Shown: positions 37,609 through 44,939 of the stretch, one piece after another
How positions within the stretch are numbered: the first letter of the stretch is position 1
Layout of the letters: every line of letters begins with the position of its first letter
Origin: a bacterium
GTDB taxonomy: Bacteria > Planctomycetota > Planctomycetia > Planctomycetales > Planctomycetaceae
Reading direction: 5' to 3'
Assembly (NCBI GenBank): GCA_016124895.1
Contig: WGMU01000070.1
Span: forward strand, 25,053 to 89,052
DNA length: 64,000 nt
Notes under the pieces: model-generated
The model's input: only the letters and a program-made list of their open reading frames with translations
Databases searched by the model: none
What the model was told of the DNA's origin: nothing
Program-made: the position numbers and the translations under genes

Positions 37609-40413
37609 TCATTCACCAGATCCAACGTCTTGAGATTCCCCCCCCGACTCCGGACTGCGCAGAGTGGACAGCTCCGCCAGTTGAGCCTGCAGATCGCCGA
37701 GCTGTGACCGGTAACGATCCAGCAACTGCCGCCGCGGACTCGACTGTGCCGCGTCAATTCGATGCGCGACGCCACTCAAACCAGCAGCCGACTCACCGTC
37801 TGACTCAAGTCCCGCGTCGGCGTTGATCGCGTCCTCAGACTCCGCAGCCAGCGAGTCGTCTTCCTGTTCCGCGTGAACTTCCAGGTCAGAACAATCAGCA
37901 TCGCTATCGAATGCCCGCTCAACAGACTCGACATCCGGGATCCCGCGGATGTCAACGTCGTCAATAGGCACCGTGTGAGCACCGGCTTCCGGCTCGTCAT
38001 TCACGTCAGGACTCGCGGCCGTCAATTCGTCGTCGGAGAACTCGGCCTCGTTGCGATCAACAAGCTCATCGTCACGTCGTTCCGCCATCTCTGTGGGAGT
38101 GGTCGTGGCGTGATCGATCTCCAGCGGACCATCCGGCGTGGCCAGGCCGAGCCATTCTGTCAACGAAACTTCCTCAGCACTGCGTGGCGAATCGTCCTGC
38201 GTCTCAAATGGAAACTCTCCGATCAGCGACGCGGCTTCTTTCTGGAGTGCCGTTGTCGGCGACCGTTTTGGCGGAGCCGACGCATGAGCCGGCGACGGCT
38301 GCTGCACCTGATCGAGGAACTCAACTTCGCCTTCCAGATCCGGCGGAGCGTGTCGGTGCGAGAGGTTCTGCGGAGTCGAACGTTTCAGCGTCCGGCTCTC
38401 TGGCACTGACGTTCCCAGACTCGTCGAGAGCATCCGCAACTGCGCGTCCATCTGGTTCAGCCCATTCCGCAGCAGCGTCCGTTCGTGTTCAAGCTGCGAC
38501 CGGACACGCGCCACTTCGTGCTCAAAGTCGCGACGCTCGTTGTCCAGTTCGTCGCGTAGACTGCGTACTTCGTCGAGTTCCGACGCCAGATCCTCGCGAC
38601 GACGGTCGCACTGATCCTCGAATTCGCGCCGGTCTTCAACGAGCCGCCGCTCATGCAGCTCGTGCATCGATTTGATTTCGTGTTCGAGCCGTTCCCGCCT
38701 CGCCTGCAGCTCGATCTCCTGCTGAGCGATCCGCTGCTCAAGAATCTGCCGCCGATCAGCAAACTCGCGTTCGGCACGAGCGACCGCCCGCTCGTGCTCT
38801 TCCCTCTCAGCAGCAATCTTCTCTGAATGCTCCTCGTGCTGCCGAATCAGTTCCGCGTCGCTGGCTTGCCGTCTCGATTCGAGTTCCGCCAGCTCGGCCT
38901 GCAATGCCTCGCGGTCGGATTCCAGTTGCTGCAATGCCTGCTTGAGAATCGCGGCTTCTTCGCCGCGTTCGCCGTGCCACGCAGTCCGTTCCTGCTCGAT
39001 CTGTTCGCGCGCCGCATCAAGAAACGACTCCGCTTCGGACCGTTCATCCGCCAGCAGACGCAGTTCTTCACAACGAATCTGTTCGATTTCTTCCCGTAGT
39101 TCGACTCGCAGCCGATCCGATTCTTCCATGAGCTGCTGACGTTCCACCTGTAACTGCTGTTCGTGTTCCTGCCGCCGCTGCTGCAGCAGGACCTGCAGCC
39201 GTTCGACGGACTCGCGCAACGTGACTCGTTCCTGTTCGAGCTGCCGTTTTTCCGACGCGACAAACGCCGCGTGCTTCTGCTCAGCCGCCTGCAGTTCACG
39301 ATGAGCCGCGTTGATCGATGCCGTCTCTTCCGCGACGAACGACTGAAACTCCGCTCGTTCCTGAGCCAGTCGCCGCTCGTGCGTTTCCGTCTGATCCCGA
39401 AGTTCCTGTCGATGATCTGCAAGCCGGCGTTCCCACTCCCGCTGCTCCTGCCGAATCGCCGCCCGTCCAGCCGCCACTTCATCCTCAGTCCGCCGTCGCA
39501 ACTCCGCCAGCGACTGCTTTTCTTCCGTCAGTTCGGCCATCCGCCGGTCACACTCTTCAATCACCTGCAGCCGGCGCACCGTGCGTTCGTCTTCCGAGTT
39601 CTCCAGTTGAGCCCGCAGTTCGGTCACCTCACGAGCGTGTTCGCGCGAACGGCGATCAAGTTCCTGCTGCAGTCGTTCAATCTCACCCGCCAGTTCCGCC
39701 CTCTCTGTCGAGCACTGATCGAGAAGCTGCTGCGTTTCGGAATGCACCTCAGCCTGGCGATCGCGGAACTGTCGTTCGAGCCGGACCTTCTGGTCGCGTT
39801 CGGCCTCTGACAGAGCCTGTTCACGCTCGACGAGCTGCAGCTTCCACTCGTCGATCTGAGCGAGCTGCTGCTCAAGCTGGCGCGTCTGCTGGGCGTGCCG
39901 CGCGGCCCAGCGTCGCTGTTCTTCCTGCAGGTCAATCCGAGCCTGCGCAATCTGCTCCCGTTCCCGCTCAAACTGATCGCGGGCATTCCGCACTTCCGAT
40001 CGTGGCATTACGGACTCGTATCTGTCCTCAACGGCTGTCGTTGCTTTGCTGGCGGCAGACTCACCATCTTCGATTTCGTCTTCCGGCGCGAATACGCGTA
40101 ATCGCTGCGGCCGATCCGCTCCGTGACCACTCGCGATTCCGAGATCCGCATCCGTCGGTCCGATGTCGGCCTGGTCACCAGACTGTGGATCCGGAAGATC
40201 ACGTGCCGCCACATCGTCCAGCGTCTCCGCCAGCTCCGTCATCATGGGTGAATGACGGCCTGACGCGCTGTGATCAGCCGAGCCCGAGCCCTGCTGCAAC
40301 TCGTTCTGCAGACGCGAAGCCAGCGCACCGGCGTCGCGCAGGAACCGCTCCTCGTCGAACTGTCGCCGCTCCGCTCGGGCCTGATTCGCCGGAGATTTCA
40401 CCAGACGTCCCAT
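37609..40413 (-). CDS. Long coiled-coil protein upstream of the HEAT and scpA genes
   Basis: A 934-residue cytoplasmic protein. After a polar N-terminal 140 residues, an almost unbroken Glu/Arg/Gln-rich coiled coil runs from about 143 to 665 (for example QFEREREQIAQARIDLQEEQ), about 75 nm if fully extended at 0.15 nm per residue. The final 270 residues are acidic and low complexity, closing with a short helix (RYRSQLGDLQAQLAEL). There are no SMC heads: no Walker A, Walker B or signature motif. A structural or scaffolding role is likely. ATG 40413 (MGRLVKSP) is chosen; the frame is open to 40719 without protein-like sequence. Eight G in a row near the C-terminus (37638-37645, written as C on plus) may be slippery. 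Confidence 0.75.
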   Translation of the reverse strand: MGRLVKSPANQARAERRQFDEERFLRDAGALASRLQNELQQGSGSADHSASGRHSPMMTELAETLDDVAARDLPDPQSGDQADIGPTDADLGIASGHGADRPQRLRVFAPEDEIEDGESAASKATTAVEDRYESVMPRSEVRNARDQFEREREQIAQARIDLQEEQRRWAARHAQQTRQLEQQLAQIDEWKLQLVEREQALSEAERDQKVRLERQFRDRQAEVHSETQQLLDQCSTERAELAGEIERLQQELDRRSREHAREVTELRAQLENSEDERTVRRLQVIEECDRRMAELTEEKQSLAELRRRTEDEVAAGRAAIRQEQREWERRLADHRQELRDQTETHERRLAQERAEFQSFVAEETASINAAHRELQAAEQKHAAFVASEKRQLEQERVTLRESVERLQVLLQQRRQEHEQQLQVERQQLMEESDRLRVELREEIEQIRCEELRLLADERSEAESFLDAAREQIEQERTAWHGERGEEAAILKQALQQLESDREALQAELAELESRRQASDAELIRQHEEHSEKIAAEREEHERAVARAEREFADRRQILEQRIAQQEIELQARRERLEHEIKSMHELHERRLVEDRREFEDQCDRRREDLASELDEVRSLRDELDNERRDFEHEVARVRSQLEHERTLLRNGLNQMDAQLRMLSTSLGTSVPESRTLKRSTPQNLSHRHAPPDLEGEVEFLDQVQQPSPAHASAPPKRSPTTALQKEAASLIGEFPFETQDDSPRSAEEVSLTEWLGLATPDGPLEIDHATTTPTEMAERRDDELVDRNEAEFSDDELTAASPDVNDEPEAGAHTVPIDDVDIRGIPDVESVERAFDSDADCSDLEVHAEQEDDSLAAESEDAINADAGLESDGESAAGLSGVAHRIDAAQSSPRRQLLDRYRSQLGDLQAQLAELSTLRSPESGGESQDVGSGE

Positions 40414-40712
40414 GAGAGCCTCACCCTGGAATTCCGCTGGCCAGCCCAACCTGCAGACAGATTCGATGGCCAGCAAACGCCGTTGCTCAGATTCTTCCGG
40501 GCGTCGAGCTGTGCACACTCCGCGGCGCGCAGGGCACCTCGACACGTCAGCTTTATCGGTCAAGGCAGGAGTACCGGTTGAGCGAAATCTGCCGGTCACA
40601 AGAATTCGAGAAGCTGCGCAAACTTTGCGGCTGAGGCGATTCTCAGGCAGGCAGAAGAGCAGTGTGCCGTTCCGGCAGAGCGTCGCGACAACCACTCCGC
40701 AATGCTCACGAC

Positions 40713-41681
40713 TCACCACGGCAGCCTGTCGAGATTCACGTTGCCGCCGCTCAGAATCAGGCCGACGCTCTCGATATCCACAACGCTGCGGAACTGGTCA
40801 TCAAGAACAGCCGCCAGTACCACGGCCGAACTCGGTTCTATCAGCAGTTTCGCCCGCTCCCAGAGCAGGCGCATGGCCGCAATGATCTGCTCGTCGCTGA
40901 CAGTAATGATCTGCTCGACCTGATCACGGATGATCGGCCAGGTCAATTGACCGAGGCTCGTCAGCAGGCCATCAGCGATCGTGTTCGGTGCTGTCTGGGG
41001 AATGAACTCACCCGCCGATTTTGACCTCGCCGCGTCATCCGCTCCGGCTGGCTCCGCCGCGAAGACCCGCATCCCATCGCTCAACCCGTGTGCTGCAATG
41101 GCCGTCCCGCTAAGCAACCCGCCGCCGCCAACCGGAGCAACCACAGCCGAGAGGGACTCGCCCAGTTCCGCAATCTGCTCAATCAGTTCCAGCGTCGCAG
41201 TCCCCTGCCCTGCGATAATATGCGGATGATCGTACGGATGAATAAAGGTCGCCCCGGTCCGCTGCTGCACTTCGGACGCGGTCGATTCCCGCGCCACCAG
41301 CGTCGGTTCACAAAGTACGACTTCCGCTCCGTAATCCAGCACGGCCGCCTGCTTGACCGGCGACGCCGTACGCGGCATCACGATAAACGCCGGAATGCCC
41401 CGCATCTTCGCCGCGAGAGCGAGTGCCTGCGCATGATTGCCTGAACTGTGCGTCACAACGCCCGCAGCCGCCGCTTCGTCTGGCAGCCGACTGACCGCAT
41501 TGAACGCGCCGCGAAACTTGAATGCACCAACTTTCTGAAACTGCTCACACTTGAAGAACAGTCGCCGCCCGGACAGTGCGTCGAGCGTCCGACAGGTCAT
41601 CACGGGAGTTCGATGCACCGCCCCGCGAATTGCCTCGGCAGCCGACAGGACATCTTCAAATCGAACAGACGATTCAGGCAC
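40713..41681 (-). CDS. Threonine/serine dehydratase-like PLP enzyme
   Basis: A 322-residue fold-type II PLP enzyme without the C-terminal ACT regulatory domain, as in catabolic threonine dehydratase, serine racemase and threo-3-hydroxyaspartate ammonia-lyase. Motifs: HRTPV near 23-27, FFKCEQFQKVGAFKFRGA with the PLP Lys, SSGNHAQALA binding the cofactor phosphate region, and PVGGGGLLSG. GHRT-like substrate loops do not distinguish the substrates by eye. About 300 bases separate it from the coiled-coil gene, with no recognisable gene between. It lies 57 bases downstream of the haemoglobin gene, across a palindromic repeat. Confidence 0.87.
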   Translation of the reverse strand: MPESSVRFEDVLSAAEAIRGAVHRTPVMTCRTLDALSGRRLFFKCEQFQKVGAFKFRGAFNAVSRLPDEAAAAGVVTHSSGNHAQALALAAKMRGIPAFIVMPRTASPVKQAAVLDYGAEVVLCEPTLVARESTASEVQQRTGATFIHPYDHPHIIAGQGTATLELIEQIAELGESLSAVVAPVGGGGLLSGTAIAAHGLSDGMRVFAAEPAGADDAARSKSAGEFIPQTAPNTIADGLLTSLGQLTWPIIRDQVEQIITVSDEQIIAAMRLLWERAKLLIEPSSAVVLAAVLDDQFRSVVDIESVGLILSGGNVNLDRLPW

Positions 41682-41709: not shown

Positions 41710-41739
41710 GGCCGGACCGGCGCTACGCTCGTTCCGGCC
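41710..41739. repeat. REP-like palindrome at the haemoglobin stop codon
   Basis: GGCCGGACCGG (41710-41720) mirrors CGTTCCGGCC (41730-41739), around CGCTACGCT. The stop codon of the haemoglobin gene starts at its edge. Elements of this look are scattered in planctomycete genomes as I recall them. Confidence 0.6.
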
Positions 41740-42122
41740 TACAGTTCCTCGACGATTTCCGCCTTCGTACTCTCAATAAACGCGAGCACCTCGCCTCGCT
41801 CCGCCTCTGGCACATCGAAGTGGTCGAGCGTCGCCTTCAGGTGGCCGCTAAAACGCAACCAGTCGGACTCGGAAATTCGCATCCCGCGATGCGCTGTCGT
41901 CATGTCACGGCCGGTGTAATACAGAGGCCCACCAGCACAGTGGCAGAGAAAATCAATCAGCAGTTGCTTCTCTCGCAGCAGCCCGTCGGTACCACGATGA
42001 GCCCAGAACCGTCCGAGCTGTTCGTCTCCGATCAATCGCGGCAGCAGGTTTTCTGCCACGGCGGAGACCCCATCATATCCGCCCAGCCGGACATACAGCG
42101 TTGCCCTGTCAGCGTCACTCAC
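41739..42122 (-). CDS. Truncated haemoglobin, group I-like
   Basis: A 127-residue haem protein that would bind O2 or NO. LYVRLGGYDGVSAVAEN is the typical N-terminus; the proximal His lies in TTAHRGMRISESDWLRF. At the B10 position, usually Tyr (in FY), I read Leu (NLLPRL), which would change ligand stabilisation. The start is GTG 42122, with GGAGG five bases upstream; the frame is open to 42284 but those residues do not fit the family. The gene is divergent from the REC-glutamate dehydrogenase gene, so their promoters share about 290 bases. Confidence 0.83.
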   Translation of the reverse strand: MSDADRATLYVRLGGYDGVSAVAENLLPRLIGDEQLGRFWAHRGTDGLLREKQLLIDFLCHCAGGPLYYTGRDMTTAHRGMRISESDWLRFSGHLKATLDHFDVPEAERGEVLAFIESTKAEIVEEL

Positions 42123-42410
42123 AGCCACCTCCCTCCAGGTAACCGCCCTGGCCCAGACCAGCCCGACACCCGCCGCAGCCAGATCTGCAGCGGACACGCC
42201 AGGCGGCAGTGTTGCGTCCGGCAACCAGAGTTGCCACTGGCAGCCACATCGTGATTTTCCAACGCAGTCAGCAGACCGACGCAAGGAATCGTATTGACTC
42301 TTTAAGACCGCTACCGCAACAGTCAGTCCTGCCTGCCCGCCTGCACGGCGTCGGACAGGACAGGATGTTCGAGCCGAACATGCCGGAGCCTCAGTTCAGG
42401 GAGCCGCTCG

Positions 42411-44054
42411 ATGAAACCGTTTCTCGTGCTGATGATCGAGGATAGCGCCGTTGACGCTGTCGTCATTCGGGGAATGCTCTCGAAGGTGCAGGCGACGCGG
42501 TTCAATGTCGAATCCGTAAAGACACTCGCCGACGGAATCTCCCGACTGGACCGTGGTGGCGTCGACGTTGTTCTGCTTGACCTGACGCTGCCGGATAGTC
42601 AGGGGCTGGAATCGTTTCAGCGAGTCGTGAAGGCCGCCCCCCATGTGCCCGTTGTTGTGCTCACGGGGACCGACGACCTGACGATGGCGGCAACCGCCGT
42701 CGAAGAAGGCGCGCAGGCCTACCTGGTCAAAGGCAAGATTGACGCGCGCAAACTGATACGCACCGTCCGCTACGCGATTCAGCACGTCGAAGCAGAACAT
42801 GCCGAGTGGGACTCGCCAATGTTCCGCCTGGCTCAGCAGCAGTTCATGAAAGCCGCGCAGATCATGAACCTCGACGACAACGTGCGCGAGCGGTTGCTGT
42901 TTCCGCAGCGCACGCTGGTCGTCACGCTGCCGTTCCGCCGCGACGAGTATTCTGAAGTCGAGAACGTGTTTGGCTACCGGGTGCAGCATCTGCTGACGGC
43001 CGGCCCGACCAAAGGCGGCATTCGTTATCACGAAGATGTCAGCCTCGGCGAGGTTTCAGCGCTCGCCATGTGGATGAGCTGGAAATGCGCCCTGATGCAC
43101 CTGCCATTTGGCGGTGCGAAAGGCGGCGTCCGGATCGATCCGACGGGCGTCAGCCGGCACGAACTGCAGCGACTGACGCGGCGCTACACCTCGGAAATCA
43201 TTGGCATGATCGGTCCCGACAAGGACATCCCGGCTCCGGACATGGGCACCAATGAGCAGGTCATGGCCTGGATCATGGACACCTACAGCCAGCAGGTCGG
43301 CTATGCCGTCCCGACGGTTGTGACGGGCAAGCCGGTCGTTCTTGGTGGATCACTCGGACGCCGCGAAGCAACGGGCCGCGGCCTCGTCTATCTGGTTGAA
43401 GAAGCGGCCGGTCACATTGGACTTGACCTGAAACACGCGACCGCCGTCGTGCAGGGGTTCGGCAACGTCGGCAGCAACGCCGCGAGATTTCTCGAAGAAC
43501 TCGGAACGCGAATCGTCGCCGTGAGCGACGTTTCAACGGGGGTCTACAATCCGCGAGGCCTGTCCGTCACCGCGCTGGCTGAATACGTCGATCAGAACGG
43601 AACGCTGATTGGATACCCCGATGGCGAAGCAGTCTCCAATCAGGAGATGCTCGAACTGCCGTGCGACATTCTGGTACCGGCCGCTCTGCAGAATCAGATC
43701 ACCGGTGACAATGTCGAGCGGATTCAGTGCAAACTGCTGGCGGAAGGAGCAAACGGACCGACGACTCTGGAGGCCGACGAAGTGCTCCACGAGCGCGGCG
43801 TCTTCGTTCTACCGGACATTCTGGGCAACGCAGGCGGCGTCACGGTGTCGTACTTCGAGTGGGTGCAGGGCACGCAGAACTACATGTGGTCACTCGAAGA
43901 AATCAACAGCCGGCTGCACCGCATTCTGACCGACGCGTTTCAACGCACGATGCGCCGCGCTCAACGCGACCAGATCGACGTCCGCACCGCAGCACTGATC
44001 GAGGGCATTCAGCGCGTTGCTGAGGCCAAACTTGTCCGTGGACTCTTTCCGTAG
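42411..44054 (+). CDS. Response-regulator receiver domain fused to glutamate dehydrogenase
   Basis: A 547-residue fusion. Residues 1-122 form a receiver domain with every key residue: Glu10 and Asp11, phospho-acceptor Asp57 (LLDLTLPD), Thr85 and Lys107 (YLVKG). Residues about 135-547 are a Glu/Leu/Phe/Val dehydrogenase: substrate-side TKGGIRYH (Lys201) and Lys225, catalytic-region GGAKGGV (Lys237), Asp277 in PAPDMGTNEQVM, and NAD(P)-binding GFGNVG (349-354). It converts glutamate and 2-oxoglutarate plus ammonia. Phosphorylation of Asp57 could gate this reaction. One frame runs through without interruption, and GGGAG lies seven bases before the ATG. No histidine kinase gene is nearby. Coenzyme choice is not clear. 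Confidence 0.9.
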   Translation: MKPFLVLMIEDSAVDAVVIRGMLSKVQATRFNVESVKTLADGISRLDRGGVDVVLLDLTLPDSQGLESFQRVVKAAPHVPVVVLTGTDDLTMAATAVEEGAQAYLVKGKIDARKLIRTVRYAIQHVEAEHAEWDSPMFRLAQQQFMKAAQIMNLDDNVRERLLFPQRTLVVTLPFRRDEYSEVENVFGYRVQHLLTAGPTKGGIRYHEDVSLGEVSALAMWMSWKCALMHLPFGGAKGGVRIDPTGVSRHELQRLTRRYTSEIIGMIGPDKDIPAPDMGTNEQVMAWIMDTYSQQVGYAVPTVVTGKPVVLGGSLGRREATGRGLVYLVEEAAGHIGLDLKHATAVVQGFGNVGSNAARFLEELGTRIVAVSDVSTGVYNPRGLSVTALAEYVDQNGTLIGYPDGEAVSNQEMLELPCDILVPAALQNQITGDNVERIQCKLLAEGANGPTTLEADEVLHERGVFVLPDILGNAGGVTVSYFEWVQGTQNYMWSLEEINSRLHRILTDAFQRTMRRAQRDQIDVRTAALIEGIQRVAEAKLVRGLFP

Positions 44055-44105: not shown

Positions 44106-44939
44106 TCACGCGACGTCCCGGTGGCGCGGCGGTGGTGCAGACTTCGCGTTGCGGGACTCGGCGACTTTCGCCAGCACGGCATCCAGACGACCGATGATCT
44201 GCTGCTGAAAATCGAGCAGCGTCGCGGCGGTCTTCTGAAAATCCCGATGACTCAGTCGCAAAGCACGCTGTTCGAGTTCTTCCGCAAAACGCGTCAGAGA
44301 TTCAATAGCCGATTCGAGTTCAACCAGCAGGTCGCGCGGACGTTCGGAAACCGGACACTGCTCGATTTTCGGCTGAGGAATAGGTTCTTCATTCGGCTGT
44401 GTATCGCGAAGCGTTTTCATCAGCGTTTCGATGCCCATCCGCTTGCGGGCTTCGAACTCTTCGATCAGCTCTTCTTCCTGCTCGATCAGCTCAATCAGTT
44501 CGGCTGGCGACAGTGTCGATGGATCAATCTCCGGTTCGTCATCAAAGTCATCGACCGAGAACGCCTGCAGAATCGGCGGCGGCGTTTCGGCTCCCGTGTC
44601 GCGCAGAGCAAGTTGAAACGCACCCACTTCGAGTTCGTCACCGTCGGCCAGATGAGTCGATCGAGTCGCCTGTCCGTTGACTTTCAGTTCCGGCCCGTCG
44701 GCGATCATGTCAATCCAGACGTCGATCCCGTCGACGTAGAGAATGCTGTGCAGCGGCGGCATGTCACTGCCACCAAGCCGCAGGTCGCAGCGTTCGCCGG
44801 CTCCGATCAGAAATCGCTCGTGCGTAATCGGCCGCAACGGGTTCTGCGTGCGTCCGCGGGTGATCTCCAGGAGAAACGGGTACTCCACAGAGTCGTTGTG
44901 TCGAGGTGCCGGATCGGTGTGTGTGTGCTGTTCTGTCAT
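44106..44939 (-). CDS. FHA-domain protein with C-terminal coiled coil
   Basis: A 277-residue cytoplasmic protein. Residues 20-112 look like a forkhead-associated domain (RFLIGAGERCDLRLGG, DMPPLHSILYV, KVNGQ, LADGDELEVGAFQ). FHA domains bind phosphothreonine, but the Arg after IG is replaced by Ala here, so phospho-binding may be weak or lost. Residues 130-277 are helical and partly coiled coil, with an acidic centre (LIELIEQEEELIEEFEARKR). It probably acts as an adaptor, perhaps in Ser/Thr kinase signalling, which is rich in planctomycetes; no partner gene is adjacent. It converges on the glutamate dehydrogenase gene with a 51-base gap. Confidence 0.78.
   Translation of the reverse strand: MTEQHTHTDPAPRHNDSVEYPFLLEITRGRTQNPLRPITHERFLIGAGERCDLRLGGSDMPPLHSILYVDGIDVWIDMIADGPELKVNGQATRSTHLADGDELEVGAFQLALRDTGAETPPPILQAFSVDDFDDEPEIDPSTLSPAELIELIEQEEELIEEFEARKRMGIETLMKTLRDTQPNEEPIPQPKIEQCPVSERPRDLLVELESAIESLTRFAEELEQRALRLSHRDFQKTAATLLDFQQQIIGRLDAVLAKVAESRNAKSAPPPRHRDVA

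Follow-up and report, generated by a model that had tools for sequence, protein, structure and literature searches.

In this study, we report a planctomycete gene, located in the 64 kb stretch of DNA that was analysed (the window), which encodes one protein consisting of a complete response-regulator receiver and a complete predicted glutamate dehydrogenase (GDH). Relatives of this REC-GDH fusion occur in several phyla, often next to a hybrid histidine kinase gene. The activity of the dehydrogenase is likely switched when the receiver residue Asp57 is phosphorylated by way of a hybrid histidine kinase, a reading to which we give a probability of about 0.7 from comparative sequence evidence. 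In the usual view, two-component systems affect metabolism by way of transcription.

The fusion gene and its product

The REC-GDH gene lies at 42411..44054 on the forward strand and is a stop-free reading frame of 547 amino acids plus stop. The sequence AGGGAG at 42398..42403 (forward strand), 7 bases ahead of the ATG, is the likely ribosome-binding site. Pfam searches of the window protein identified Response_reg at residues 6-119 (E 4.7e-17), ELFV_dehydrog_N at 165-293 (E 4.6e-51; positions 1-128 of 129 of PF02812) and ELFV_dehydrog at 312-544 (E 7.3e-82; positions 1-241 of 241 of PF00208), both GDH domains being full length. The single continuous frame, receiver followed by dehydrogenase, described in an earlier reading of the DNA without database searches (the sequence-only reading) was thereby confirmed. 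Chance could not account for a 547-codon frame whose three curated domains are kept in several phyla.

The receiver was assigned to residues 4-122 (42420..42776, forward strand) from the Pfam match and the secondary structure of the model. The pocket residues Glu10, Asp11, Asp57, Thr85 and Lys107, named in the sequence-only reading, are all present at these positions in the window protein; the codon of Asp57, the predicted phosphorylation site, is at 42579..42581 on the forward strand. The dehydrogenase was assigned to residues 136-547 (42816..44051, forward strand) from Pfam, the model and alignment to solved GDHs. Residues 136 to the last align end to end with the solved enzymes, the best being that of Thermotoga maritima (1b26), which was also the best fold match of the model. 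The AlphaFold2 model was built from 72 aligned sequences (pLDDT 89.7, pTM 0.77) and replaced an earlier model from 47 sequences (pLDDT 75.3, pTM 0.66). Its secondary structure shows the alternating strand and helix order in the receiver, with helix alpha5 at residues 112-130, and places the first GDH helix at 136-152. The junction between the two, residues 123-135 (42777..42815, forward strand), comprises the end of helix alpha5 and AEWDS. Because the unfused relatives also begin at an EWDSPMFR-like stretch, the receiver is joined directly onto a normal GDH start. Residue 137, a methionine at which an internal start could lie, is M in 138/148 fusions.

Lys237 of the PFGGAKGG motif (codon 43119..43121, forward strand), which we take to be the catalytic lysine, is invariant, in agreement with the earlier claim of a complete dehydrogenase with its catalytic residue. 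Together with K201, K225, D277 and S480, which are, from GDH structures, presumably the catalytic and glutamate-binding residues, it is identical in 48/48 fusion loci and invariant in the 72-sequence alignment, unfused GDHs included. The window protein does not reach the cut-off score for any of the named NCBIfam GDH equivalogs. The hexameric NAD(P) enzyme of T. maritima aligns with residues 136-547 with its active-site residues kept, whereas GDHs of the 1b26 type lack a receiver and are not known to be regulated by phosphotransfer.

The window neighbours of the fusion encode a globin, a PLP enzyme, an FHA-like protein and ABC transporter parts. The bacterial globin gene (41739..42284, reverse strand; PF01152) and the FHA-like gene (44106..44939, reverse strand; PF16697) probably lie outside the system; neither these nor the other window neighbours recur beside fusions in other genomes. 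The FHA-like gene is convergent with the fusion gene and 51 bp away from it. GarA-type proteins are FHA regulators of GDH in mycobacteria, and a role of this kind for the FHA-like neighbour was considered and dropped, the gene not being conserved beside fusions elsewhere. A 1036-aa frame at window positions 37609-40719, apparently a coiled coil, has no Pfam family at E<=1e-4.

Distribution, conservation and history of the fusion

The best 120 of 8000 scored homologues all carry the three Pfam domains. When these were combined with the fusions from the inspected loci and duplicates were removed, the survey of fusions proposed in the sequence-only reading yielded 148 distinct proteins from several phyla with an invariant pocket; having been found with the window protein as query, the set is biased towards it. 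Residues E10, D11, D57 and K107 are identical in 148/148 aligned fusions, and position 85 is T in 99, S in 48 and V in 1 (T or S in 147/148). Among the separately read loci, D57 and K107 are kept in 48/48, and E10 and D11 in all 47 that cover them. One homologue, 94% identical to the window protein, is present on three other contigs. The sequence-only reading had allowed that a frameshift or assembly error might have joined two genes; this explanation is refuted by the 148 distinct fusions, by the 94% identical copy on other contigs and by the absence of internal stops from all the listed full-length matches.

Mean identity to the window protein over the 148 fusions was 52% for the receiver and 79% for the GDH part. 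Of 17 pairs tested, 11 had a receiver dS <1; in these, dN/dS was 0.021-0.188 for the receiver and 0.032-0.111 for the dehydrogenase, ratios which indicate that the receiver of the relatives is under purifying selection. For the window's own receiver dS was saturated. Among fused receivers, mean entropy was 0.67-1.11 bits for alpha4, beta3, beta4 and beta5, 1.54 for alpha5 and 1.84-2.19 for alpha1-alpha3 and beta2. The junction (0.76 bits) and the first GDH helix (0.49 bits) were among the most conserved stretches, again as measured in fused proteins only.

The fusion is rare. In Planctomycetota it was found in 12 of 392 genomes sampled, one copy being cut by a contig end. Matches at E<=1e-190 were present in 14 of 16 genomes of the phylum group of a Latescibacterota genome and in 8 of 188 genomes of the Myxococcales group; at the same threshold, 369 genomes of Gammaproteobacteria (the class of Microbulbifer) and 200 genomes of the Gemmatimonadetes group gave no match beyond the search centre. 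Of 21 named fusion genomes, many of them incomplete metagenome assemblies, 14 contain nothing but the fusion that matches the query at E<=1e-60. Nine plasmid records, that of NGR234 included, carry a full-length fusion at 60-80% identity; among the matches listed, all are from Sinorhizobium or Ensifer.

A tree of 133 GDHs placed 39 fused and two unfused proteins (L131 and L132) in one clade of 41 rows with support of 100. Three receiver changes are needed in this tree, and the history is most simply read as one gain followed by two later losses of the receiver. L131 and L132, close relatives of the window GDH, are 73-76% identical in the dehydrogenase part, and no receiver was found upstream of either in any frame. 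Since both lost it, the receiver is dispensable. The GDH frame of L132 contains one in-frame TAG.

These data bear on the possibility that the receiver is phosphorylated without effect on catalysis, and instead governs how GDH assembles, where it is located or which partners it binds, or that the fused protein acts as a phosphate sink for the neighbouring kinase. Such a role would agree with active-site residues that are the same as in unfused GDHs and with relatives whose GDH part stayed 73-76% identical after the receiver was lost. We nevertheless consider it unlikely, given that the joined unit has a single origin and was retained in several phyla, and that variation at the junction and in the first GDH helix is so much lower than in alpha1-alpha3 and beta2 (1.8-2.2 bits, fused proteins only). 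Control of catalysis by the receiver is the preferred reading.

Histidine kinases linked to the fusion

To determine kinase linkage, 45 fusion loci were scanned for histidine kinase motifs, and those left without a motif match were searched by tblastn. A hybrid histidine kinase gene was present at the fusion in 30/30 non-planctomycete loci; 24 of these kinases were found by motif within 600 bp and six by tblastn, of which five run off the contig end. The 15 planctomycete loci comprised six linked (L151-L154, L023 and L157), seven unlinked (the window, L147-L150, L155 and L156) and two that end at contig ends (L158 and L028). The kinase at L157 is of a different type and lies 497 bp from the fusion; this protein (L157:2105-4318) has one receiver, no Hpt and no recognised sensor. 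In L028 (Roseiconus), a kinase sister to the linked planctomycete kinases stops 59 bp short of the edge of another contig, which fits the linked arrangement but falls short of showing linkage. Locus L045, which is 75% identical and has its 5' part missing at a contig end, is probably also a REC-GDH fusion; its kinase lies 98 bp downstream.

On the rhizobial plasmids a kinase adjoins the fusion in all four inspected of the nine full-length records at 60-80% identity, and the GDH-kinase order is constant across the four while the upstream genes differ. The linked kinase of S. fredii NXT3 (L224:9775-12622) is annotated as two overlapping CDSs and may be broken there. Among the adjacent kinases three arrangements were seen: the kinase gene was downstream on the same strand in 20 cases, upstream on the same strand in 6 and downstream on the opposite strand in 4 (L151 being counted twice). 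As a control, 40 loci of the nearest unfused GDHs, mostly from other taxa and each flanked by 3 kb or more on either side, were scanned; a kinase was found within 600 bp in 0/40 and within 6 kb in 2/40.

Fifteen linked kinases were scanned by Pfam. HisKA and HATPase were found in 15/15, two receivers in 14/15 and an Hpt match in 10/15, with none in the other 5. Their sensor ends were dCache-HAMP-PAS in one, CHASE in five (one with PAS), paired PAS_7 in three and none recognised in six. In a kinase-core tree of 29 linked and 30 background kinases, from which the rhizobial kinases were left out, the linked kinases did not form one clade: five changes were counted, at least two of them forced by strong branches. 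A fused enzyme of single origin has thus been accompanied by kinases of different lineages and sensors. The HisKA-HATPase-REC-REC-Hpt order of the linked kinases is shared with BarA/GacS-type hybrid kinases, a likeness in domain order alone. Kinases of the BarA/GacS type carry an Hpt and act on a DNA-binding regulator, whereas the receiver protein encoded next to the linked kinases is an enzyme.

A linked histidine kinase, for which the sequence-only reading had suggested a check, was present at 30/30 non-planctomycete loci, 6/15 planctomycete loci and 4/4 rhizobial plasmids, but none linked to the fusion was found within the window's own 64 kb. We infer that the partner kinase of the window organism is encoded elsewhere in its genome. 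Hpt-bearing hybrid kinases are present on contigs C59 and C31 of this genome and are candidate partners by architecture only. No clear orthologue of the linked planctomycete kinase was found there, the best cores in the window genome being 47-60% identical as against 76-100% among the linked kinases. A second REC-GDH was likewise rejected, the matches that combine a receiver with some downstream similarity being a REC-PAS-phosphatase-like and a REC-kinase protein. The genome also encodes an unfused GDH paralogue, 47% identical, which is preceded on the same strand, at a distance of about 1.6 kb, by a gene for a 1274-aa hybrid kinase (L171:2829-9765).

The lack of a linked kinase in 64 kb, and the loss of the receiver in the nearby relatives L131 and L132, would be expected if the receiver of the window organism were an orphan relic that is no longer phosphorylated. 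This appears improbable to us: the window protein keeps all pocket residues, the genome holds Hpt-bearing hybrid kinases, and in the unlinked relatives L101-L103 the receiver has a dN/dS of 0.012-0.021, a rough value as dS is above 1, which points to purifying selection there. A functional receiver served by an unlinked kinase is the reading we retain.

Predicted control of glutamate dehydrogenase

According to the sequence-only reading, GDH would be switched directly by a two-component system. The invariant pocket, purifying selection on the receiver and the adjoining kinases support this proposal, and control of activity is deduced from them. A signal perceived at the kinase would pass phosphate through the kinase receiver and Hpt to Asp57 of REC-GDH; kinases without an Hpt match may transfer phosphate to it straight from HisKA. 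The alpha4-beta5-alpha5 side of the receiver, linked by helix alpha5 to the first GDH helix, would pass the change to the hexamer. In its unphosphorylated state the receiver would hold GDH back, and phosphate would free it. Given control by phosphorylation, release from restraint is the probable direction, since the two receiver-less relatives keep a GDH that is 73-76% identical. A precedent is CheB, where the unphosphorylated receiver restrains the enzyme and phosphate releases it.

The gene surroundings suggest which reaction may be controlled. In 4/4 loci of the Blastopirellula/Bremerella type (L147-L150) the fusion sits within a catabolic arginine succinyltransferase (AST) cluster encoding AstA, AstB, an aldehyde dehydrogenase and a class III aminotransferase, along with an M20 peptidase-family protein and a 2-oxoadipate dioxygenase/decarboxylase family protein. 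The AST pathway breaks down arginine and ends in glutamate. On an Ensifer adhaerens plasmid (L223:1-12635) the order is methylaspartate-pathway genes, REC-GDH and hybrid kinase, the upstream genes encoding methylaspartate mutase and ammonia-lyase, a CoA transferase, a CoA ester lyase and fumarate hydratase. The methylaspartate pathway can use newly made glutamate; its genes were not accepted as conserved neighbours of the fusion, having been seen at the Ensifer locus only. The main flux is probably the conversion of glutamate into 2-oxoglutarate and ammonia as amino acids are broken down.

The control could also run in the opposite direction, with the phosphorylated receiver inhibiting GDH, or the enzyme could be mainly aminating, as the position of the Ensifer plasmid gene behind methylaspartate-pathway genes might suggest. 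We regard this as possible but clearly the weaker reading, for the AST neighbours in 4/4 Blastopirellula/Bremerella-type loci point to glutamate breakdown, and loss of the receiver with retention of the enzyme fits a receiver that restrains. Release by phosphate of a GDH working in glutamate breakdown is preferred.

CheB, PorX and the response regulators with GGDEF, EAL or PP2C outputs are signalling or protein-modifying enzymes. They likewise carry an N-terminal receiver with a full pocket on an enzyme, and the frequent presence of a kinase gene next to the REC-GDH relatives is as seen for enzymatic-output response regulators; PorX and others gave weak receiver matches to the window protein. 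Unlike these types, REC-GDH has as its output an enzyme of central nitrogen and carbon metabolism.

Fusions of receivers with enzymes are a known kind. The table of enzymes in two-component proteins from the 2009 P2CS paper (PMC2716373) lists glutamate dehydrogenase, EC 1.4.1.3, as 'Probable', in an entry that names no protein, organism, kinase or function. According to excerpts of PMC5847659, bacteria are known to have receivers attached to standard metabolic enzymes, and archaea have receiver fusions with thioredoxin reductase, pyruvate phosphate dikinase and glycosyltransferase. In these excerpts the archaeal fusions are narrow, within a family or genus, whereas REC-GDH occurs in several phyla with a kinase neighbour. 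The excerpts of PMC1183210, PMC4426382 and PMC4053727 contain no description of a REC-GDH fusion. For the kinase-paired REC-GDH no description was found in open-licence PubMed Central, and an earlier one is possible.

Taken across the phyla, we lean slightly towards the view that the hybrid sensor kinase and REC-GDH form a travelling two-gene cassette for direct phosphorelay control of the glutamate/2-oxoglutarate branch point. One fused enzyme would have been re-paired repeatedly with kinases of differing sensors (dCache-HAMP-PAS, CHASE, PAS or none recognised) in Planctomycetota, Latescibacterota and relatives, Gemmatimonadota, Myxococcota and Proteobacteria, conjugative rhizobial plasmids included. 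If so, different outside signals would gate nitrogen and carbon flux at the enzyme within seconds. Direct control of GDH by a kinase could be tested at once in Sinorhizobium fredii NGR234, a tractable laboratory symbiont whose megaplasmid carries the fusion with its kinase. Sensor exchange next to a single conserved fused enzyme would offer a natural set of input variants. If the proposed control is true, a kinase would determine the phosphorylation of GDH itself and couple an outside signal directly to the carbon-nitrogen branch point.
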